DNA from: Drechmeria coniospora
Taxonomy: Eukaryota; Ascomycota; Sordariomycetes; Hypocreales; Ophiocordycipitaceae
Assembly (NCBI RefSeq): GCF_001625195.1
Contig: NC_054391.1
Span: forward strand, 9,004,552 to 9,068,551
Reading direction: 5' to 3'
DNA: 64,000 nucleotides
The notes below the pieces were generated by a model. The model did not search any database. It was not told the DNA's origin and was given only the letters and a program-made list of their open reading frames with translations. Shown piece by piece: positions 3,271 to 44,583 of the stretch (its first letter is position 1; each line of letters begins with the position of its first letter). A program made the translations under genes and the position numbers.

Positions 3271-5697
3271 TCAAATGATGTTGGCAATGCTAATTCGTTC
3301 TGCTCCCCTCTTAACGTCAGGCGGATTCGAAGTCGGGCTTCGAGCACCCGGACCCCTGTTTTCCGTCGCATAACGGGGTGGGTCAGGTATTCTGTGAAGC
3401 TCTACTGTCGTTGCGGACGTCTCCGTTTTAACCTGTGGAGGGGGGAGCGACGTCCAAGATCCCGTTGTTGACACGAGTCCTCGAGCGGCGGACTCGAGTC
3501 GGGCCCACCCGATCCATTCTCGGCGGTCCTCCTCACTGAGGCCAGTTCTGACCTCGGGGCTGAACAGGCCGTTCTCGCTCGCGACACCCGACGTGGACTT
3601 CGTCTGCGGCACTTCGTGATCTTGCATTGCCCACAGCCAGGACCTGTGGGGGGATGCTTGCTGGTCAGCCGAAACGTACGCCAGAAGCTCCTCATCGCGA
3701 GTCAGAGACATGAGAAGTGCTGACTGGTCGAAAGAGGACCTCTGGGATAGATAGCTTGCATATTCGACACGCTTGGACGACAACACGGATATGAAAAAGG
3801 ACAGACATCTTCCGCACGAGAGTGTAATGTCTCGTCGTGCATCTATCACGGCCAGCGCCCTGATCAGTGTTATTGCGTGATCAAAGTAGCCAGTTAGGAG
3901 CAGGAAGAGCGTCGAGCGAAAGATATGCGTCGTAAGTAGTGATGTGGCTCCATCACCAGGTGATTTGCTCCGGGCAATGAGCGATGAGGTCTCGAGAGCG
4001 ACATGGGTGCAACTTTCGACGGCGGCAAGTCGAAGCTCCGGGACGTTGCTTGGCGATAAGTTGTGTCGATGCACAAGCATCCTGGCATGAAACAGATACG
4101 CCAGCGGCGCAAGAAAATGTGAAGCCAGCGCCACCGTATTCGAGGGATCGCAGGCCGGGGGGAAAGTGCCGAGGCATTTCTTGAAGTGGCCGTCGAACAT
4201 GGACAGCTGCGCAGCGACAAGCGTCGGCGCATCCGTCGACTTGATCAAGGACGAGTACGATCGGACGACATGGATAACGGCAAGGAGCGAATGGGTCAGG
4301 GGTTCGGCGCCGTTGGGAATGCACATGCCATCCTCCCGGAGATACTGATCATCCACGGCCGCCGGCAACGGCACGTCGCAGTCCGAATCGTCAATCATGT
4401 ACGGCAGTCCCATCTCGGTTGCCATTGTCCGGTCCAGGATATAGATAGCCCACCAAGTCCTACGCCTCATCTCTCCTTCGATGACAGGCCACGAGCCGCA
4501 ATCAGAGTACAAGCCAATGTCTTGACCGGCCCGCACGGCACTGCCAAGCCAGTTCCAGGCTGCCGACTTCAAGTTCATTTCGTTCAGGCACATGGACATC
4601 AGGACGAGGGCGCGGACGTTGTCGAGGGTGTAGGTATTGTTCCATGGATCTATCAGCTTTCGCGCGGATTCGAGAAGTTCGGCCGGACGGTAGAAGGTTG
4701 ACGTCGTCGGGGGTTCGGGACTGAACAAACTTCCGGTGGCGAGAACGGCGTAGAACAATGATGTCCACGCGGAGGATACTCGCTGGGGGTTCGAACGGTA
4801 CAGGCCGTCGACCATGGCCTGGAAGGTTGGCATGTGCACGATGGGGAACATGGTATGGGCCGAGGTGCAGTAGGCGTGCAGCAGCTGATCCGCAACGCTC
4901 TGCGGCGGCAGTTCAGGGGTAGGGCAGTCGAGGGTGGAGGACACCGCCGCGTGACGATACTGCGCCGGGGGTCTCCATATTCCCTTGGAAAACGTGTGTA
5001 CATTGGCCCGGGCCCTTGCGAGTTCCGGGTTGGGCGGGTTGCGATTTCGAGGCTTCGGCTCGGAGCCTATCGGTGGCAGATGCGACAGCTGTCGGTCGGC
5101 TGGTTCCATGTCCATGTCCATGGGCCCGTCTCGTTCCCCGATGATCCTGCGCAGATGGGAGTTGTCTCGCTTCATCCGCTCGATTTGCTTCTCGAGATCC
5201 TGCACCTGCTTGATGGAAGACATCCGTCGATTAGTTTCTTTCGTGAACTGGCACTTGACGTTGCGGCTGGAGCACTCCGAGCAGCTCGTTGTCTCGGTAG
5301 CATCGCACTTGACCTTTCTCTCCCGGCAAGCATCACAGCTGGGGTCCTTCCGGCGCTGGCGATATGCCCTCTTCGGGCCCTGACTGGTCGGAGTCCCGGG
5401 CATATGACCCTGGGAGCCCATGATGGAATCCGTCGAAGCGAGGGACTCGCGACCCAATACGGAGCCTGTCATGGATGCGTACAGCGGGAAGCCTTGGCTG
5501 ACGGGAGGTAGTGACGGCATGCCGAGCGGCTGAGGACTTGACGCTGCGTTGGGCCTCACGCTTGTGCCCAGCAAGGTTCCTGGATAGCGAGAAAGTGGCC
5601 GTGGCGAGGTGGCGGAGGAGACGGATGAGGAGTCGTATGACCTTGTGGATGGGTTGGGAGATCGAGCGTATGAGTTGTGCGACTGTTCGGCCGCCAT
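3271..5697 (-). CDS. Zn2Cys6 fungal-specific transcription factor
   Basis: Single-exon gene of 808 residues, read from an ATG at 5697. The N-terminal ~105 residues are Ser/Pro-rich and look disordered. A basic stretch (KRAYRQRRK) precedes a complete Zn2Cys6 cluster with cysteines at about 121, 124, 131, 139, 142 and 149 (spacing C-X2-C-X6-C-X7-C-X2-C-X6-C). A coiled-coil linker follows (QVQDLEKQIERMKRDNSHLRR, about 164-184). The middle region has the fungal transcription-factor (MHR) signature: YCTSAHTMFPIVHMPTF, then RRRTWWAIYILDR and MIDDSDCDVPLP. The protein is expected to bind DNA as a nuclear dimer at CGG half-sites. The target genes cannot be told from sequence, and I do not recognise a named orthologue. 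No cluster of metabolic genes surrounds it. Confidence 0.9.
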   Translation of the reverse strand: MAAEQSHNSYARSPNPSTRSYDSSSVSSATSPRPLSRYPGTLLGTSVRPNAASSPQPLGMPSLPPVSQGFPLYASMTGSVLGRESLASTDSIMGSQGHMPGTPTSQGPKRAYRQRRKDPSCDACRERKVKCDATETTSCSECSSRNVKCQFTKETNRRMSSIKQVQDLEKQIERMKRDNSHLRRIIGERDGPMDMDMEPADRQLSHLPPIGSEPKPRNRNPPNPELARARANVHTFSKGIWRPPAQYRHAAVSSTLDCPTPELPPQSVADQLLHAYCTSAHTMFPIVHMPTFQAMVDGLYRSNPQRVSSAWTSLFYAVLATGSLFSPEPPTTSTFYRPAELLESARKLIDPWNNTYTLDNVRALVLMSMCLNEMNLKSAAWNWLGSAVRAGQDIGLYSDCGSWPVIEGEMRRRTWWAIYILDRTMATEMGLPYMIDDSDCDVPLPAAVDDQYLREDGMCIPNGAEPLTHSLLAVIHVVRSYSSLIKSTDAPTLVAAQLSMFDGHFKKCLGTFPPACDPSNTVALASHFLAPLAYLFHARMLVHRHNLSPSNVPELRLAAVESCTHVALETSSLIARSKSPGDGATSLLTTHIFRSTLFLLLTGYFDHAITLIRALAVIDARRDITLSCGRCLSFFISVLSSKRVEYASYLSQRSSFDQSALLMSLTRDEELLAYVSADQQASPHRSWLWAMQDHEVPQTKSTSGVASENGLFSPEVRTGLSEEDRREWIGWARLESAARGLVSTTGSWTSLPPPQVKTETSATTVELHRIPDPPRYATENRGPGARSPTSNPPDVKRGAERISIANII

Positions 5698-16585: not shown

Positions 16586-19500
16586 TCAACCCTGTGTTGT
16601 ATCCATGGCGTCCTGGTTCACTGCCAGCTTCGCCCTGGCGTCGGCAATCTTGCCCTCTCTCCACTTTTCAATCTTTTCTTTGAGGTCTGGTTGCGGAATC
16701 GCGTCATCAATCGTCATAGGCTGTCGCGTAAAGGGATCTTTGGGGTCGCTCAGGAGGTGCTGCACAATGGTTGAACGGTCGACGACGTGCTTGCTGGGCA
16801 GGAGGACGGGGTCTTTCATCAAGTCTCCCATGATGGGATCCTCAAACTCGGCCGGGATGTCGCCGAGGTCCACGTCGGCCTGGTCGAGAAGCTGCTTCGC
16901 CTCGAGGAACTGGGCCTTGATCTTTTCCCACTTGGCCATCTCGCCGACGTCCTTCTGGTTCTTCGACGCCAGGATTCGGGTCACACGGTCCAGCACCTCA
17001 GGCTTGTAGGAGCGGCCATCGGCGGCAACGGCCTCGACAAAGATGGGCGAGTAGCCTAGGTGCAGGTAGATGTCGACAAAGTCCGAAATCAGCTGGATGG
17101 GGCGGAAGTGGTACTTGTCCTTGTTAGAGACGCTCAGCTCGGCAGCCGCTCTCTTGCCCGCAAGCGTCTCCAGGTTGTAGTTGAGCATGCTGGCGAGTCG
17201 AGAGACGATCTCGGGCATCGTGAACGATTCGCTGAGAGCCAGCGTGAACAGCTTCATCATCTCCAGCGTCTCGTTGGCAAGCTGCATGTAGGATGTCGCC
17301 TGGTTGCCCAACGTTTGAAGTTCCTCCTCCTTCTTCTGCCTCGCTTCGGTCGACAGCGAATGGTCCTCCAGCTCCCTCTCGAGAATGCGCATTTTGGGAA
17401 ACTTGGTGAAGGCCTCGTCCAGGACGTAGGTGGCGTCGTTGAGCAGCATGTTGACAAACTGGACGAAAAAGCTGCGGTTAACCCTACGCACGCACAGTGG
17501 TCAGCAAGCTACTCGGCCATACGACAGCGGCACGGCGGCGTGCAGCGTACTTGCTCTCCCTTGTCAACTGCTCCTTGTACACGTCGTTGACCCAGACGCA
17601 TTTGATGACTTGGAATATCTCGTATCGGATGTTGAACTTATCGTAGAAGGCGTTACCTCCGGTGGACTCGCATTCGATGTAAAACTTCATCAACGCATGG
17701 AGCAGATAGTCGTTGGCGAACTGCAGCGATATGAGCTGGTCGCCAAGCACGCCTTTCTTCAGGTGCATGAGAGGCCAGGTTCCCGAGAAGAGCAAAGAGA
17801 CCAACGAGGATTTGAGGTACGGATTCTTGATGAAGTCGGAGGACCGGAGAAACGTGATGGACAGGGCAATCATTTCCTCGCCGACGGCGCTCGGGAGAAT
17901 CGCGGGCAACCACCTGTGAAGGGTAAGCAATGTGATCTGGCAGCCGACACGGGCGACGCGAAACCCGGGCGTCACTTGCCTGAATATAAACTTGAAGTTG
18001 TCGACGATGTTCTGAAGCGCGTACTCCGGAAGGCAGGCAAACGCTTCCGAGCCTTCCATGGAGAGGGGCAGCCTGCGACTTGTGAGCAGAGGAGGGATGC
18101 GACTGAAGGTGAAGACGTACTTGATAGCTTGAGATTCCTTGCCTGGCCTGTAGTTTGATCCCGTCACGAGGCGGAGCAGCCAGACGGCGACGTAGCGCAT
18201 GAAGCGGAGAGATGTGCTCTGCATCCGCTCGTCCAGGAGGGCACCCTCTATGGCGTACTTGAGGGCGATCGTCTTCTCCAGCACGTTCGTGTGCCGCTTG
18301 AGCGTCTCCTCAAACAGACGTAGCTGGTGGGGTGCGTTGGCAAACTTGGGTCGTTCTGCCTCCATGGCCTTGATGTTCTTCTCCAGATACCTAATCTCGC
18401 GGTCAAGGTTCTTCAGCTGGGAGTTGAGAGCTTCACTGCCGTAGTGATGAGCCGCGAGGGTGAGGAAGAAGGCCTCTGAGATGAAATTGGAGCTACCTTC
18501 CTCCTGTTCGGAGTAGTACTTGTCGGCCGTCGCCTGATCGGCGTTGAGCTTCGTCTCGTCCTTGATGTCGACGCGAGGCTGCCTCTTGAAGTAGCCGACA
18601 TCGATCTTGTCCACCTTGGTGAAGTCGCTATCCATAAAGGGCTCGCAAAATCGATCCATGATCGAGGTGACGTTGAGCATGAAGCCATCGGAGGAGACTT
18701 CTCTCGGGTCAACCTGGATGGCGCGCCGCTTGTGATTCACGTTCATGATGTAGGCAAACCAGTTGAGCGTGCGGCTTCTCGTGTCCGGACCGGCGCGGAT
18801 GAAGGCGTTGGCAATGACGAACAGGTCTTCCTGGTGGGCCTTCAAAACGATGCGCAGCGACTCCTGAGCGTTGGCGATCCTCGTTCGATCGAGAGAGCGC
18901 GGGCCGGGGAAGTAGCTCTTGATGGCCTCGGGCTGCAGGGGGGAAATTCGGAAGAAGGGACCGAGGATGGTGTGCCTCTCTATCCCCGGCGCGGACTGAG
19001 CCATGTGGAAGGAGGAGTCCTCGGCGAGGTTGGAGATGAGGACGGGAAATCGCGTGTAGGTCAAAAGGGCCTGGATTTCATCAGCTGACGCGGGTCATGG
19101 ACCTCGATGGGAGGCTCGCACCTGAACGTGAGGCTTGTAATCGTCGCCCAGTGACAGGTTCGAAAGCTGGCGGCTTATGTCCACCATGGCGCGGCTGAAG
19201 AGATCGGGGAAGGCCTCGTCGTCGTCAAATCGCTTGACGGCTTCCCGGATGAAGTCAAAGTCGAGGCCGGCGTCGTCGGAGATGCCGCGGAGCAGGTAGG
19301 GTACGAGGGTGTCATGGTGCACATTGTTCTCGCGCCTGTCATGCCTGTCAGCGATGAACGAAAACGAGGACGAGGGGAGGGAGCGGTACCCGTAGAGCAT
19401 CGGCATGGTCAGGGAGAACAGGCCGTTGCTGACGCACAAGCGCTTCGCCTCGTCGTGGACGGCCAGCCTCGGACCGGTGGCGTGCTTGGCTAGGCTGGCC

Positions 19501-25764: not shown

Positions 25765-28236
<2,472 letters not shown>

Positions 28237-28266
28237 GGCTTCATGGTCTAGTGGTATGATTCCTGC

Positions 28267-28322
28267 GTACGTTCCCACTAAATCCTCAAGCCCCAATCGA
28301 GCTCCCACTAACAGTCCCCCAG
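28267..28322 (+). other. 56-nt GT-AG intron-like segment inside the tRNA anticodon loop
   Basis: Starts GTACGT, a common fungal 5' splice site, and ends CCCCCAG. It has ACTAAC at 28307-28312, eleven bases between the presumed branch A and the terminal AG. Its length matches the protein-gene introns nearby. It sits between tRNA positions 31 and 32. Confidence 0.65.
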
Positions 28323-28328
28323 TTCGGG

Positions 28329-28363
28329 AAAACCTGGAGTCCCCGATTCCTCAGAATCGCCTT
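28329..28363 (+). other. Canonical tRNA intron at 37/38
   Basis: 35 nt directly 3' of TTCGGG and before T38 of tRNA-Pro. It contains CCCG, which can pair with the CGGG of the anticodon as in standard eukaryotic pre-tRNA introns. Confidence 0.7.
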
Positions 28364-28402
28364 TGCAGGAGGCCCCGGGTTCGAATCCCGGTGAAGCCCT
28401 CA

Positions 28403-28422
28403 TTTTTTTCTCTTTTTTTTTT
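28403..28422 (+). terminator. RNA polymerase III terminator of tRNA-Pro
   Basis: Two T runs (7 Ts at 28403-28409 and 10 Ts ending at 28422) begin four bases after the discriminator base. Confidence 0.85.
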
Positions 28423-29380
28423 GCCCACCCTCTCTCTCTCTCTCACCTCCTTGCTGTGCAGTAAGTAATAATTATTACTACTGTAAGTACAGTTTCAGGT
28501 CGAAGTACTTATGCACGAATGCTCCGTCCTAAACTTGGGCTGGCTGCTTGCAAGCGACGCTTGGCTAAGTACTTAATTAAGCACCAACATGCAAGCCAGT
28601 CAAACAGTGACTCACTCACTGCACTGGTAAATTGAGCAGTTAGTGCACGCACGAGACATTGTACGCCGCCGTCCGTTCCGCCGGGGACTTTCCCCGAGTG
28701 CTCGACTCGACTGACGCCCTGGGATTGGCTTGCCCTTTCCGCCTCGCTTCTCAACAAAGCTTTGACGCTATTCCGATCCCTCCGAAGTACGGACTAGTTG
28801 TGCATGTATCCGAACAGAGTACGTACTCCGCATTACTCCGTACGCAAATGCAAGTATTACCTACGTAAGTTTAGTACAGTACAGGCACAGAATATGTAGT
28901 ACATTGCCCGTATTGGAGGACACTGTAAGTACGGAGTATTATTCTTGCTGCTGTGCTCCGTATTACAAGCTCGGAGTACTTACTCCGTAAGTGCAACAGT
29001 ACACCAGTACTCCAACCGGTACTATTGTACGGAGTAGATAATATTTATTAATTACTGAGCTGTGCCGCCAACCAAGGCCGATGCTGGTCATACTTGTGTA
29101 ACACATGCACGGAGTAAGTACAGTACTACCGGTACCTTGCAAATACATGTAGCTCTTTGCAGAGAAAACTAACCAGTTTTAGTCTAGTGCGCTTTCTCTT
29201 CATTAGGAGCCATCATCGTCGGTTCAATTTGGCCATGACAATAATTCCGAGATCCCGTCGATTTGCTGCCTCCTTCCCTCGACCTGCCGTGAGCTGGACT
29301 ACGTAGCACGGTACACGTAATCACGTAAAGCCTGAATCCCGACTGCCTGCTTTCATCCCTCCACCTGGATCCTCCCCGCG
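28423..29380. other. Intergenic region, tRNA to QNS1
   Basis: Motif-rich DNA (GTACGGAGTA and TACTCCGTA words at about 28785-29040) followed by the QNS1 promoter. No gene seen. Confidence 0.5.
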
Positions 29381-32300
29381 ATGGCTTTCGTCACCGTCGC
29401 AGCGGCGACGCTGCCCAGTGTTCCCTTGGACTTCCAGGGGAATCGTGACAGGATCATCGAGTCCATTCGCATCGCCAAGGCAAAAGGTGCCACCCTTCGC
29501 ACGGGGCCCGAGGTTCGCATCGACGACATTCATGGCCGCGGAAGAGCTACTAAAGGACGAATAGCTCGAGATTCCCGGCTATTCTTGTTTGGATCACCAT
29601 CTGGGTGAGAAGCCCGCAGCCGCTTCCCGGGTGCCGTGAGCTAACAATGGACACCTCAGAGGGGGATACCGTCTTCCACTCCTGGGAGGTCTTGGCGGAA
29701 ATCATCAGCGATGAGGCTTGCAAGGGAATGCTCGTTGATGTCGGCGTAAGTAGAGCAGCTCCGTGACTCGATCCGTTTCCATCTTTGAATCCTGACCAAG
29801 ACAAGATGGGCTGCCGCCACCGAAACGTCTTGTACAACTGGCAAGTCTCGTCCCATCCCCTGCTTTGCGTTCCCGCACCATGGCCAATTCATCTCAACCG
29901 TAGCTGACACTGACACAGCCGGGTCCTGTGCACGTATAAGCGCATCTTGTTCATTCGGTACTCTCCGCTTCCTCTTCGCTTCCTCGTCCAACTGTTGATC
30001 CTAGCTAACGGCCACAGACCCAAAATGTCCCTCGCAAACGATGGGCTCTATCGAGAGGCCCGTCACTTTACCGCCTGGGTCAAGAAGATGCAAACGGAAA
30101 CGTACTATCTGGAAAGCGTCATCGAAAAGGTTACCGGCCAGCACACCGTTCCCATCGGTGACGCCATCCTGTCCACTCTCGACACGGCCGTCGGCTGCGA
30201 GACGTGCGAGGAAATGTTTACGCCCAGCAGCCCGTCCACCGTGCGTCATCGACACCTCCATTCCGCTCACATTTGGATCCTGAAGCTCAAATGCACGTAG
30301 TACATGTCCCTCAACGGGTGCGAGATCATTCTCAACGTAAGCGAACTGCTCCGGACCCGTAAGAGTCCAACAATTCTCACACGCGGAATAGAGCAGCGCC
30401 TCGCACGCTGAGCTGCGAAAGTTAAGGACGCGAATAGAGCTCATTGCCAATTCGACGTATGTCATGCCGAATGCCTGCCGATGTGGAGGCTGACGAATTC
30501 TTCAGGAGAAAGACGGGAGGTTGCTACGTCTATGCCAACGCCACCGGCATCGACGGTGAGGCCCGGATGATGTTTGATGGATCCTCCATGGTTTTGGTTC
30601 GTAGGCCCGAGTGCCCCTGCATCTTCACTCTCGCCCCTTTTCTGCCGATGCTGACGGCGGACAGTTGAACGGCAACGTGCTGGAACAAGGTCCTCAGTTC
30701 TCCCTCAGTCCTGTTCACGTCATGACGGCAACGTTCGACATTGAAGAGATTCGAAGCTTCCGCTGTAGCATGTCTCGGAACGTTCAAGGTGCTGCGCAGC
30801 CCGATTATCCTCGCGTCGAGTTTGACATGCGATTGTCACGTCCCGTCAACGACGTCTTCCTGCTGGACACGATTCGAATCTCTCGTCCCATGCAGCCCCG
30901 CATCCTCGATCCCATGTCGGAAATCTGGATGAGCACCAGCGTTTTGTACGTTCCTTTTCCTGACCCCTCCCTGACGACATCAGCTGACCCTCTCTCAGCC
31001 TCTGGCAGTGTGAGCCATCGCAGCAACATGGTTCGTGCCACGTGCACCGTGATGGACTGACGATGAACCATAGACCTCGTGAGAACAAACTCGGCCGGTT
31101 TCTTCCTCAGTCTCTCGGGAGGTGTGTGGTTCGCTTTTCGGCATCGCGGGGGCGAGTTTTGACGTTGAATAGGACTCGACAGCGCGACGGTGGCACTCTT
31201 CGTGTACGGCATGGCCAAAATGGTCCTGGCGTCGATTGAGGCCGGAGAGGAAACGACGTTGGCGGATCTGCGACGCGTGACAGGAGTCCGTGACTTTCGT
31301 CCCGAAACGCCGCATGAGATTGTCAACCGATTGCTGACGACGTGCTATACGTCAACCGTCAACTCGTCCAACGAGACCCGATCTCGCGCGGAGAGGCTCT
31401 CGGAAAAGCTGGGCGCGTGGCATCTGAGCATTCCGATCGACAACATCGTCGAGTCCTATCACTCCCTCATCAAAACAGCACTACACTTCACGCCGCACTA
31501 CGCCGTCGAAGGCGGGACGCAAGCGGAGAATCTCGCCTTGCAAAACCTACAGGCGAGGAACCGCATGGTGGTGCAGTACACACTCGCGCAGCTCGTCACG
31601 ACAGCGCGAAAACTTCCGAGGGCCGGGTCGGCACTGCTCGTCCTCACCAGCGGCAACGTAGTACGTCGTCCCGAGAGCGTACGGAATTGTTGGCCTTGAT
31701 GATTCTAACGACGTGCAGGACGAAGCTTTGCGTGGCTATGTGACAAAGTACGACGCCAGCAGCGGAGACATCGCGCCCCTCGGCAGCATCTCCAAAAACG
31801 ACGCGAAACAATTTCAGGCGTGAGTCGAGGCACTCGGACATGTCGCAGCGCCGACGGCCAAGCTGACAGCTCCAGGTGGGCGCGAGAGCAATGGAGTCTA
31901 CCCATGTTGACGGTATGCGTCCCAGGTCCTGTCCCTCTCGACCGACAGGGACACTTCGCTCACTTCCAGCAGGAGTTTCTTGAAGCTACGCCATCGGCCG
32001 AGCTGCTGCCGCTCTCGGCCGGAGTGCAGGACGACGAATCCGAGTCCGAGTAGGTTGCCAGGAAACTCGACTTTCGTCCATGGGGCTGACCGGCATCTCA
32101 GGATGGGCTTGACGTATGACGAGCTCTCCATGTTCGGCATACTGCGCAAGGTGGAGAAGCTGGGCCCGTGGTCCTGCTACCTGCGCCTTCTGGGACTCTG
32201 GAAGGACAAGGAGGGCATGACGCCAGTGAAGATTGCGGAAAAGTGCATGCGATTCTTCAGGCACTATTCCATGCAACGCCACAAATCAACCATATTAACG

Positions 32301-39489: not shown

Positions 39490-40981
39490 TTACTGCCTTG
39501 TGACAGCAATGGCCTCCTCCAGGATATCAAGGCCCTCGTGGATCTCATCTTCGGTCACCAATAGACTTGGGACGAATCGCAGAGTATTGGTGCCAGCGGT
39601 TATAACGAGCAGGCCCCGCTCGCGGGCAGCCTTCACGATCGGTGTGGGATCCTCGGTGAGCTGCAGGCCGAGGATGAGACCGCGGCCACGTGCTTCGGCG
39701 ACGAGTTGAGGGAAGCGCACGCGCAACTTGTCGAAGCGGTCGCCGAAGATGGCCGACTTGGCGAGGACCTGCTGTTGAAGCTCAGGGTCCGACAGGCGCG
39801 TGACCATGTAGTGAGCGAGGCGGGATGCCAGGGGGTTGCCACCAAAGGTGGTGCCGTGATCGCCGACCTTGATCTTGTCGCCGACGTGCTTGTTGACGAG
39901 GACAGCGCCGACGGGAAAGCCGTTTCCGAGCGCCTTGGCCGTGGTGAGCACGTCAGGGTGGGCCTCCCGAGGCAGGTGGCCGTGGGCCCAGAATGTACCG
40001 GTCCGCGAGAGGCCGCACTGGATCTCGTCATAAATCAAGACGGCGCCGACATGGCGGCATCTTTTCGCCAGGGCGACGAGGAAGTCGTCGGTCGCGGCCT
40101 GGACACCACCCTCGCCCTGGATAGGCTCGACGATGACGCCGCAAGTGCTCTCGGTGACGGCGTCTTTGATGGCGGCGATGTCGTTGAAGGACGCCATGCG
40201 GAAGCCAGGGACCATGGGTGAGAAGGGCTTCTGGTACTTTGGGTTATGCGTGGCCGAGAGGCTGCCCATGGTGCGGCCGTGGAAGGCGTTGTTGAAGCTG
40301 ACGATTTCGGTCTTGTTACCAGAGGGGTCGACGACCTTGCCGACCTTCCTGGCGAACTTGATGGCCGCCTCGTTCGCCTCGGAGCCCGAGTTGCAGACGA
40401 ATACGGAGCTGGCGTCGTGCATGGCGCCCGACTCGACCGTCTTTTCGACGAGAAGCTTCGACAGGGCGCCGGTCCAGGGGTTATAGTAGAGGTTGGAGGC
40501 GTGCACAAGCGTCTTGGCCTGAAGATCCAACGGTTATTGGTGAGTGACAGGGTGAGTGGGCGAGGGCGACGCCGAGACGCGAGCAACGGGAACGCACCTG
40601 ATCAGCCATGATGCGGGTAAACTCGGCGTCACAGTGGCCGAGGGACGTCACGGCGATGCCGGCGGTAAAGTCTAGGTACTTTCTATTCTCCACGTCCCAC
40701 AGCCACGAGCCCGAGCCCCGAACGAAGACGGGGGGTGGGCGGGCGTAGGTGGCGACCATGTAGGGTGCGTGTTGGTCGACGAGCGCGGCGCTGGCCGAGT
40801 CGGGAGCGGGATCTGGATTCGGCACAGCCAGGGCATCCGTCCTCGACGACGGGGTCTTCTGCGGCGTCCGGTCGGCCAAGCTCGACGCAAAGCACCGTCG
40901 CCATCGGACGCGTGGGACGGCCACGGCCCAGGCCGCTGCTGAGGCTGCCGATTGGCGTCGGAGAGGAATCGTCAGAGTCAT
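39490..40981 (-). CDS. ARG8: Acetylornithine aminotransferase, mitochondrial
   Basis: Fourth step of arginine/ornithine synthesis: glutamate-dependent transamination of N-acetylglutamate semialdehyde in the mitochondrial matrix. Two exons, 40981-40598 and 40518-39490, give 470 residues. The first ~45 residues are rich in Arg, Ser and Ala with almost no acidic residues (MTLTIPLRRQSAASAAAWAV), as expected of a matrix-targeting peptide. The class-III aminotransferase core has NSGSEANEAAIKFARK, NNAFHGRTMGSLSATHN, EPIQGEGGV, IYDEIQCGLSRTG and the PLP lysine in TTAKALGNGFPVGA (Lys323). I chose the ATG at 40981; the frame is open further upstream but that extension lacks the targeting character. A TGACTC element lies 138 bp upstream. 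Confidence 0.95.
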
Positions 40982-41118
40982 GGCGTCTCCTCGCCGTAAC
41001 GTGCGCGCGAGACAATCGACACGCGGTTCAAAGGTGCGTATGACGTGCACAAGGTGTACGCAGGGACTTGCTGGCTTGTCGAGTGAAGCCAGAAGAGTGG
41101 GTGGGAGGTGATGAATGA

Positions 41119-42312: not shown

Positions 42313-43564
42313 CTAGACTGCGCTGTATCCGCCCCGGCTGCCTGTCCCCTGCACGGTGTTCAGCACCCGTCTCAACCAGTCTTTCATGAGGTACGGGACG
42401 TCCCGGATCGTGTCGCCGTGGGGCAGCAGATCCCAGCCCCGAGCGCCGTACCGGTTGTAGTTGAGCCACGAGCCGAAGATGAGATAGGAAGCGGTGCCGA
42501 GGAACATGCTGCGTCCCTGTCAGCGGAGGGGCATGCCTACGAGACGCTCGCATGCCTCGTGAGCGTCCCGGGGTCGCCACTTACATGATGATGAACCAGG
42601 TGAAGAACCCCCAATGGCTGCTGGCGTCTCTGTCGCCCTCCTTGTCCTTGTCCTTGTCCTTGTCCTTGTCCTTGTCCTTGTCGTCGTTGCCGTCACGCTT
42701 CTCGCACGCGTACTTGGTATGCCACGTGAGTCGCAGCACATCCGCGTCCTTTTCGGGTCCGTAACTCTCCCACACGAGTGCGGCATCCTTCTTCTTCAGC
42801 TGGTGCTCAGACGAAGATTTTTCCGGACCATCGTCGGGGCCCTTGTCGCCGTCGTCGCCTTTGTCGCCGTCGTCCTTGTCGCCGTCCTCTTTCGTCGTCG
42901 CACCCTCGTCGCCAGCCCGTCGCAGCTTCTCCCCCTGCTCGACCTGTTGCTCCGCCTCCCACTCACCTTCGTCTCCTTTCTTGTCCGTGTCGCAGAGGAA
43001 CTCGATGACGGCTCGCTGCTCGCGACGCTCCTTCACGGGACCGTCCAGCGGGTGCTTGCCACCCTTGAGCACCAGCCGCACGCCTTCCTTTTGAGAATCG
43101 CTATTGGAGTCGCTCGTCTTGAGCCGCATCACTTCGTACTCGAACTGGGATCCGCCCACGCTCTCCAGGGAGCCGGCGATGGCCACCATCTTCTCCACCG
43201 TATTCTGGTCTCCGTGCAGCAGCCGCTTGACGGCGCACACTGGGACCATGTCAGTGCATTCGAGGGGAAGCGGGGAGAGCGAGCGTGCATGGTTACCTCT
43301 CGTCCCGTTGGGGCACTCTTCAGTCTTCTTCTCCTTGCCCGATTTCTTCAGGGGCTTGCAAATGTCCAGCGTGTATGTCGTGTTGTGGTGCGCGTCGACG
43401 AGGGAGTCGTACTGAGAGGTGACGACGGAGTGGGGACCTCCGAGCTTCGAGAGGTCGAAGCTATGGCCGTCCACTCGCACATTGTTGCAGTTCAGCATCC
43501 CCCAGCTCGGCGCAGGCGCGAGGAGCAGGGAGAGGGCCAAGGCCGACTTTCGTGACGGATGCAT
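42313..43564 (-). CDS. ATG27: Autophagy-related protein 27 (type I membrane protein)
   Basis: Atg27 helps supply Atg9 membrane to forming autophagosomes and cycles between Golgi, endosome and vacuole. Three exons, 43564-43297, 43239-42585 and 42508-42313, give 372 residues. The start at 43564 gives a clear signal peptide (KSALALSLLLAPAPSWG). The lumenal MRH-like part has the expected Cys pairs (LNCNNV, LDICKPL, ECPNGTRVCAV, EFLCDTD, KYACEK). An acidic, Lys/Asp-repeat linker leads to one membrane span (FFTWFIIIMFLGTASYLIFG), and the cytosolic tail ends in the YSAV sorting signal known in yeast Atg27. The first intron (57 nt) is a multiple of three without a stop, but removing it restores TRVCAV. 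A longer open frame begins upstream at 43702; its extra residues would bury the signal peptide, so I reject it. Confidence 0.9.
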
Positions 43565-44583
43565 TCGAGCTGTCGCGTGCCCCGTGGTACGGGAGCGGAA
43601 GAACGGCAGCACTCGAAGCAGGCACACAAAAAAAAAGAAGAAAAAAGCCCGCAGCAGAGCAACACCGGCCCTGTCGCAGCAATGGAGGAGCGGTCGCTGC
43701 AAGATGATGAAAGGGCGCTGGTCGTGTCACGTTGAGCTGTTTGGTGTTTTGGAACTCTGGAACCTCCGGATCTTGGGCCACGGGCGGACCAACCTTCGTC
43801 ATGGCACGCTGCTTGTGGAGCCTTCACGTGACCGCCGCTGAGGTCGGTGACGACTCCCAGTGTTAAATAATATAAACCTCCATACAACCCGTACAACTCC
43901 GTACAATCTGCAATTATTATTACCACGACAACTACCATTGCTGCGATATCGACTTATAGTAGTGTACGGAGTACATTCACCGTCAAAGCTTCCCATAATT
44001 ATGCACAAACCAGACACCTGCCAGAATAGTAGCGACCTCCCGTTTCAGAAGGTGATGGATGCCTGGTTATTTACTCTTAGTAAGTGGTACTGATCATCAG
44101 AGGCACGCAACTGCTCCATACGACAGATGGATGGCTTTATGCAATTAATGGATCAGTTGGTATTTTGTAGGCCTCGGTCTAGATGCCTATACGAACAGCA
44201 AGGCACGCACGGCACGCACGGCACATGAGATTTTGCATCGTCGGCACGGGGAATCGGATGCAGGCAAACACCCTCGCACTATATTAGTACTCGGTTATGT
44301 GGCTATAGCAATCAAGAATCATCCAAGCATGACCGACCGACTGCCCGGCTTCATGCCTGCGAACACGGGTAGTTGCGCCGAGACTCGGAAATTCAAATGC
44401 ACCTCCAACCGCGTCGTCTTTCGTTACTGCAAATCCGCCAATCGCCTGGGACCAGTTCCTGGGGTATTGGAGGGCAAAGAAAAGCAAAGAAGAAAATCAT
44501 AGGTGGCCACGCGCATCGGTCGGCTTGCCACCGAGGTCGCTCCTGAACACGGCGGAAGACCTCGTACCATATAACGTGTCCAA
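43565..44583. other. Intergenic region, ATG27 promoter and SPT20 3' flank
   Basis: About 1 kb. Contains one copy of GTACGGAGTAC near 43971. No gene seen. Confidence 0.5.

Follow-up and report, generated by a model that had tools for sequence, protein, structure and literature searches.

The 64,000-nucleotide (nt) stretch of DNA analyzed here, called the window, is nuclear DNA of the nematode-killing fungus Drechmeria coniospora. Near its middle lies a gene for a proline transfer RNA (tRNA) whose anticodon loop spans 98 nt (28267-28364) and appears to hold two introns of different kinds, namely an ordinary tRNA intron and, ahead of it, a 56-nt insert that resembles a spliceosomal intron. The parts of the gene are listed below, read from the sequence unless otherwise stated.

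28237..28399, plus strand: tRNA-Pro(CGG) gene, 163 nt, predicted mature form 72 nt; acceptor, anticodon and T stems intact
28237-28243 and 28392-28398, plus strand: acceptor stem, GGCTTCA and TGAAGCC
28244..28254, plus strand: A box TGGTCTAGTGG, internal promoter element for RNA polymerase III (Pol III)
28262-28266 and 28365-28369, plus strand: anticodon stem, CCTGC and GCAGG
28267..28322, plus strand: 56-nt GT-AG insert between tRNA positions 31 and 32, putative spliceosomal-type intron (sequence, ARAGORN and shuffles)
28267..28272, plus strand: predicted 5' splice site, GTACGT
28307..28312, plus strand: branch-point motif ACTAAC; the branch A is base 28311 and the intron ends 11 nt after it
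28320..28322, plus strand: predicted 3' splice site, CAG
28323..28328, plus strand: anticodon-loop exon TTCGGG, positions 32-37, anticodon CGG (excision test in ARAGORN)
28329..28363, plus strand: 35-nt ordinary tRNA intron at 37/38, ARAGORN Pro(cgg)i(37,35)
28364..28364, plus strand: T38, the final loop base (excision test in ARAGORN)
28375-28391, plus strand: T arm
28378..28388, plus strand: B box GGTTCGAATCC
28403..28422, plus strand: Pol III terminator, T7 at 28403-28409 and T10 at 28413-28422

Direct reading of these letters agrees with a preliminary description of the locus, which had claimed a proline tRNA whose body, A box, B box and Pol III terminator are intact and whose loop holds 98 nt, and which had noted within that loop 56 nt that begin with GTACGT, carry ACTAAC 11 nt before their end and finish in CAG. 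The longest run of T inside the gene is 3, and its D-arm stretch GGTCTAGTGGTATGATTC occurs free of mismatches at 6 further places in a genome search. The boundaries of the 56-nt insert cannot slide (C/G and G/T at the ends, by eye). Removal of the 35-nt segment at 37/38 leaves a normal loop, as expected of a canonical tRNA intron, and its placement is further supported by the start AAAACC that it has in common with the intron of a tRNA-Pro(AGG) gene (L034).

Excision tests in ARAGORN bear out two other claims of that description, namely that double removal gives the normal tRNA-Pro(CGG) loop TTCGGGT, and that one intron at 37/38 would leave G32 and an ACG anticodon on a proline body. With introns allowed, the intact gene is called Arg(cct) with a 91-nt intron, and a single 91-nt excision yields Arg(acg). 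ARAGORN calls Pro(cgg) after each of the other three excisions: when the 56 nt alone are taken out it places a 35-nt intron at position 37, when the 35 nt alone are taken out a 56-nt intron at position 31, and when both are taken out the call is plain Pro(cgg). Among the excisions tried, only the nested reading makes the anticodon, U33, R37 and the tRNA body agree, and the Arg(ACG) and Arg(CCT) readings of the gene were rejected. The proposed pairing of the 35-nt intron with the anticodon held in part, in that CCCGA is complementary to TCGGG; the pairing does not appear in the constrained lowest-energy fold.

Within the 56-nt insert, TCCCACTAA occurs twice (28273-28281 and 28303-28311, 30 nt apart), which gives rise to two candidate branch motifs, ACTAAA and ACTAAC. 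This repeat may reflect an internal duplication. A 62-base query representing the insert, the only insert searched in this way, matched the genome once, at its own location; the insert is thus not of the multicopy, introner-like type, and its being a copy of another intron is ruled out by that single match.

Genes of this kind can be missed or misread. The proline gene was missed by ARAGORN without introns and by Rfam at E<=1 over 26000-31000, and it is absent from the 61 genome-wide Rfam tRNA matches (63 of 752 candidates scored). When ARAGORN was run with introns on the fetched loci, GT-AG inserts surfaced in three further tRNA genes, and the four insert-bearing tRNA genes were miscalled as Arg, Asp, Glu and Lys. 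These three genes and an interrupted gene for the U6 small nuclear RNA (snRNA) are located as follows.

C3:2620391-2620537 and C3:2620622-2620772: two tandem tRNA-Ser(GCT) genes, L078 and L079 (ARAGORN and sequence)
C1 near 3943788, minus strand: tRNA-Trp gene L063, insert at 26/27 (ARAGORN and sequence)
C2:831273-831426: U6 snRNA gene, a single match at 1501-1654 of L091 (Rfam, 60.4 bits, 47 of 1370 candidates scored)

In both serine genes the GT-AG insert splits the anticodon itself, between GC and T. The layout runs from ACGCC and CTGC into the insert (GTAAGT, then ACTAAC, then a final TAG; ACTAACAGTNGNAATAG is its end), continues with TA and another intron, 15 or 16 nt long, and closes with A and GGCGT. 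With both inserts out, the loop reads CTGCTAA, ARAGORN calls Ser(gct) for both copies, and the resulting mature forms of 81 nt are one base apart. Their variable-arm stretch GGGTTCGCCC is also found in a tRNA-Ser(AGA) gene (L103) and in a gene read as Ser(TGA) (L069). The tRNA-Trp insert (GTAAGC, then GCTAAT, ending in AAG) is flanked by GCGCG and TTGGC and ends with GCTAATCCCTTAAAAG; its removal changes the ARAGORN call from Lys(ttt) to Trp(cca). A second tRNA-Trp gene, L068, lacks such an insert. The U6 insert, GTAAGC through ACTAATACCCGCACAG with ACTAAT and CAG, lies at the junction of ACAGAGAAGAT and TAGCATGG, and excision leaves a plausible RNA (Rfam alignment, joined by eye). A second U6 gene may lie outside the 47 candidates scored. 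The U6 intron also contains GCGTTCGAACCCGG, a B-box-like motif, and may thereby supply a portion of the Pol III promoter.

The five inserts share several features. They are 51 and 54 nt long in the first and second serine genes (Ser1 and Ser2), 52 nt in tRNA-Trp, 56 nt in tRNA-Pro and 54 nt in U6, and the branch A lies 12, 12, 11, 11 and 11 nt from the end, respectively. The donor is GTACGT in tRNA-Pro, GTAAGT in two inserts and GTAAGC in two; CTAAC or CTAAT is found in all five; and the 3' end is CAG in tRNA-Pro and U6, TAG in both serine genes and AAG in tRNA-Trp. A T stands directly 3' of every insert, and CCTGC directly 5' of the proline and serine inserts (by eye). Donor, branch distance (in the serine genes with the farther AG only), 3' AG and a plausible RNA after excision all correspond to those of U2-type spliceosomal introns.

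Such a combination is rarely produced by chance. When GTRNGY, CTRAY with its branch A 6-25 nt from the end, and HAG were demanded together, the number of qualifying sequences among 300,000 shuffles of each insert was 4 for Ser1, 4 for Ser2, 0 for tRNA-Trp, 0 for tRNA-Pro and 2 for U6. A looser criterion was satisfied by 3 of 200,000 shuffles of the proline 56 nt and by 4 of the 127,888 56-nt substrings on both strands of the window. Applied to 61 distinct tRNA-like spans (fetched loci plus the window), a looser signature, GTRNGY followed by CTRAY and HAG, picked out 4, exactly the four genes described above. These are the longest single-gene spans (133, 147, 151 and 163 nt) and belong to 15 single-gene spans above 92 nt; a further 4 of the 61 spans, of 216-293 nt, each cover two neighbouring genes.

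Introns of protein-coding genes provide a local standard. With the D. coniospora proteins P0001, P0121 and P0241, five introns were mapped in three genes of the window (P0001, at 99% identity, is listed on another contig). Their donors are GTGCGT, GTGGGT, GTACGT, GTACTG and GTATGG, their acceptors CAG or TAG; 3 of the 5 fit the donor rule, and CTRAY is found in 4, where the branch A lies 11, 13, 13 and 15 nt ahead of the end. The GTACGT donor of the proline insert is thus also that of one of these five, an intron in the eIF2B-gamma gene.

The two serine genes offer a natural comparison of what has been kept and what has not. Their exons are identical in 79 of 80 columns and the first 11 insert bases in 11 of 11; identity is 15 of 17 from branch to AG and 13 of 26 in the middle of the insert. 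The second intron with its edges agrees at 11 of 17. Conservation of exons and splice signals together with a diverged middle is what a working intron predicts.

Whether intact substitutes exist elsewhere bears on how much depends on these genes. A pattern search for Ser(GCT) with 3 mismatches allowed gave 2 genome matches, both insert-bearing, and since a single pattern was used, an intact gene with a very different D arm could have escaped it; Ser(GCT) is likewise not among 11 further stretches from the Rfam list of 61 matches. In three window genes, AGC and AGT together make up 19 of 1461 codons and CCG 23 of 1461. By established decoding rules, AGC and AGT are read by no other tRNA. Because these codons are used and have no other reader, splicing of tRNA-Ser(GCT) looks obligatory, unless there is an unseen gene. 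A check called for by the preliminary description, for a second intact tRNA-Pro(CGG) gene, found none within the patterns used: a search for TGGTCTAG followed by TTCGG gave 8 matches, none tRNA-like by the matched letters alone. The second match of the Pro(CGG) search, L033, was rejected by eye as not a tRNA. A D-arm search with 2 mismatches allowed gave 14 matches, comprising 3 Pro(AGG) genes, 1 Pro(TGG) gene, the Pro(CGG) gene itself, 2 degenerate Pro-like sequences and 7 Ala genes. The degenerate pair (L041 and L042, at C1:4522377 and 4522505) lies immediately ahead of the Pro(AGG) gene L034; each member is a tRNA-Pro-like 5' half, their flanks resemble one another, and the two look like relics of tandem duplication.

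Several other explanations must be considered. One is that the tRNA splicing endonuclease treats each insert as an additional, non-canonical intron and cuts it at bulge-helix-bulge (BHB) motifs, as in red algae and nucleomorphs. Such introns do occur in Cyanidioschyzon merolae and in nucleomorph tRNAs, and eukaryotic endonucleases are able to cleave BHB substrates (PMC4090602). In a BHB test with crude geometry, the inserts of tRNA-Pro, Ser1, Ser2 and tRNA-Trp formed at most 1, 1, 2 and 1 of 4 central pairs, too few for the motif; four ordinary introns formed 3, 4, 2 and 2 (the second intron of Ser1 formed 2 at the best-scoring register). The separation from the inserts is weak and gives the endonuclease reading no support. 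More telling, all the inserts start with GTA, carry CTAAY and end in AG at spliceosomal spacing, none of which an endonuclease needs, and the U6 insert carries the same signals. An endonuclease origin is improbable, and the endonuclease-type intron at 31/32 that the preliminary description had kept as an alternative has fallen well behind after the recurrence of inserts with fungal intron signals.

It is more improbable still that the genes are dead relics struck by unrelated DNA, with their GT-AG appearance due to chance. Degenerate copies such as L041 and L042 do show that tRNA-Pro-like debris is present in the genome. Against this, the A- and B-box bodies and the following T run are intact in 4 of 4 genes, the signals recur across three isotypes, the serine copies keep exons and splice signals and not the middle, and an intact Ser(GCT) gene was not found by the one pattern able to detect it. 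Least credible of all is one long intron at 37/38, in which the loop would draw on 28267-28272, the anticodon would be ACG and the intron would measure 91 nt. ARAGORN does accept this excision as Arg(acg); the product would combine a proline body with G32, U37 and the anticodon of an arginine tRNA. The genome also has an ordinary Arg(ACG) gene without introns (L031), and the serine genes, read in this way, would end up with GCG and U37 on their serine bodies (by eye).

A number of observations weigh against the spliceosomal interpretation and must be accounted for. The looser signature arises in 797 of 30,000 shuffles of the 15 long tRNA spans, so its mere presence is weak evidence and the argument lies in its exact position. 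Likewise, across the window the loose intron motif is no commoner than in shuffled sequence (32 on the plus strand against 21-43 in shuffles, 18 on the minus strand against 19-34), and it therefore proves nothing by itself; its exact place in a tRNA is what counts. The gene introns, at 63-234 nt, are longer than the tRNA inserts, two of their donors (GTACTG and GTATGG) do not fit GTRNGY, and one lacks CTRAY. When only the GT-AG insert is removed from the serine genes, ARAGORN reports Asp and Glu with either acceptor. The nearer serine acceptor, AACAG, lies 3 nt past the branch A and is too close for the criterion, and AATAG, 9 nt further, was adopted after the nearer site had failed. This choice fits the distances in the other inserts and gives the loop CTGCTAA in both copies; the anticodon GCT results with either acceptor. 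The tRNA-Trp insert ends in AAG instead of YAG, and its boundaries slide by one G. Finally, the complete cloverleaf is missing from the unconstrained lowest-energy folds, whether of the proline precursor, of the same RNA with the 56 nt taken out or of the mature tRNA.

With these points included, it is very probable, as judged from sequence, that the 56 nt form a U2-type GT-AG intron within a Pol III tRNA-Pro gene, on which the spliceosome acts before the endonuclease, and that the same holds for both Ser(GCT) genes, one tRNA-Trp gene and U6. The nested spliceosomal reading first put forward for the proline gene is supported by the restored Pro(cgg) and by recurrence in 3 tRNA genes and U6 with fungal intron signals; this recurrence, which involves two other tRNA isotypes, makes the case much stronger than a single gene could. 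In the proposed course of events, Pol III would use the internal A and B boxes to transcribe all 163 nt as far as the T run; the spliceosome would excise 28267-28322 in the nucleus so that the anticodon arm can close; and the tRNA endonuclease and ligase would then excise 28329-28363 at 37/38 to produce tRNA-Pro(CGG). Both Ser(GCT) genes, with the insert inside the anticodon, the tRNA-Trp gene and U6 would follow the same course. The order is suggested by the nuclear location of the spliceosome and by the fact that the proline, serine and tryptophan inserts break the anticodon arm or its junction. The introns may have entered these RNAs by reverse splicing.

The surroundings of the proline gene are ordinary. 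A scan for bacterial-type promoters and terminators gave nothing relevant. From 16586 to 43702 of the window, the following genes were identified by Pfam or homologs.

16586-19064, minus strand: Ufd2/U-box ligase
37274, plus strand: glutamate decarboxylase
39490-41050, minus strand: acetylornithine aminotransferase
42581-43702, minus strand: ATG27

The tRNA survey is partial. Its 61 distinct spans, some of them from a small mitochondrial-type contig, compare with the 125 tRNA genes given for the D. coniospora genome, with inferred chromosomes of 12.5, 10.2 and 9.8 megabases, in PMC4792172, and more interrupted genes may exist. Exact-pattern scans of prokaryote and virus collections gave no match, as expected, and have no bearing on other fungi. 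Two further features emerged from the survey. Two genes called Ala(CGC) by ARAGORN (L036 and L037, on C2 near 3073991 and 3074915) have a loop read as CCCGCAA, with C in place of the nearly universal U33. In addition, the 5808-base contig C12 (L006, L007 and others) carries the same mitochondrial-type tRNAs in both orientations, for example at 330-401 on the minus strand and 4482-4553 on the plus strand, and resembles a palindrome created by assembly.

Nuclear tRNA introns and spliceosomal introns are usually treated apart, each with its own machine, and here both appear in one predicted transcript, so that production of these tRNAs would depend on two unrelated splicing machines. It is likely that the spliceosome is required for tRNA maturation in this fungus: all Ser(GCT) genes found have a split anticodon, and decoding of AGC and AGT, and with it nearly all protein synthesis, would need spliceosomal and then endonuclease splicing. 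The same assessment includes that spliceosomal introns have invaded tRNA genes repeatedly in this lineage, with reverse splicing as the probable route. If this is true, nuclear splicing would have to precede endonuclease cleavage, and splicing defects would strike translation directly. These genes allow intron gain in structured RNAs to be put to the test, as well as the question of whether the spliceosome acts on uncapped, tRNA-sized Pol III transcripts. There is also a practical lesson, because tRNA finders can misread such genes; the serine genes were miscalled until the ordinary intron was also removed.

No report of spliceosomal introns in tRNA genes was found in the open-access literature, as covered by titles and abstract openings among the matches listed, with subscription papers and preprints outside this scope. 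The ordinary fungal tRNA intron at 37/38, to which 28329-28363 belongs, explains only part of the interruption. Multiple introns per tRNA at sites other than 37/38 are known from C. merolae and nucleomorphs, where those of C. merolae are said to carry BHB motifs and to serve as endonuclease substrates, and those of G. theta, 3-24 nt long, to be of unknown mechanism (PMC4090602); the D. coniospora inserts differ from both in their 51-56 nt length, GT-AG ends, branch site and weak BHB pairing. Fungal U3 small nucleolar RNA genes likewise have spliceosomal introns in a small structured RNA, although tRNA is not among the RNAs listed as hosts. The nearest parallel is the mRNA-type intron of U6 snRNA in Schizosaccharomyces pombe and other fungi, which is likewise bounded by GT and AG, has a branch point, interrupts a short Pol III transcript and is thought to derive from reverse splicing (PMC10484740). 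RNA made by Pol III can therefore be spliced. Unlike the U6 intron, those proposed here reside in tRNAs of three isotypes, share the RNA with a second splicing system and, in tRNA-Ser(GCT), split the anticodon.
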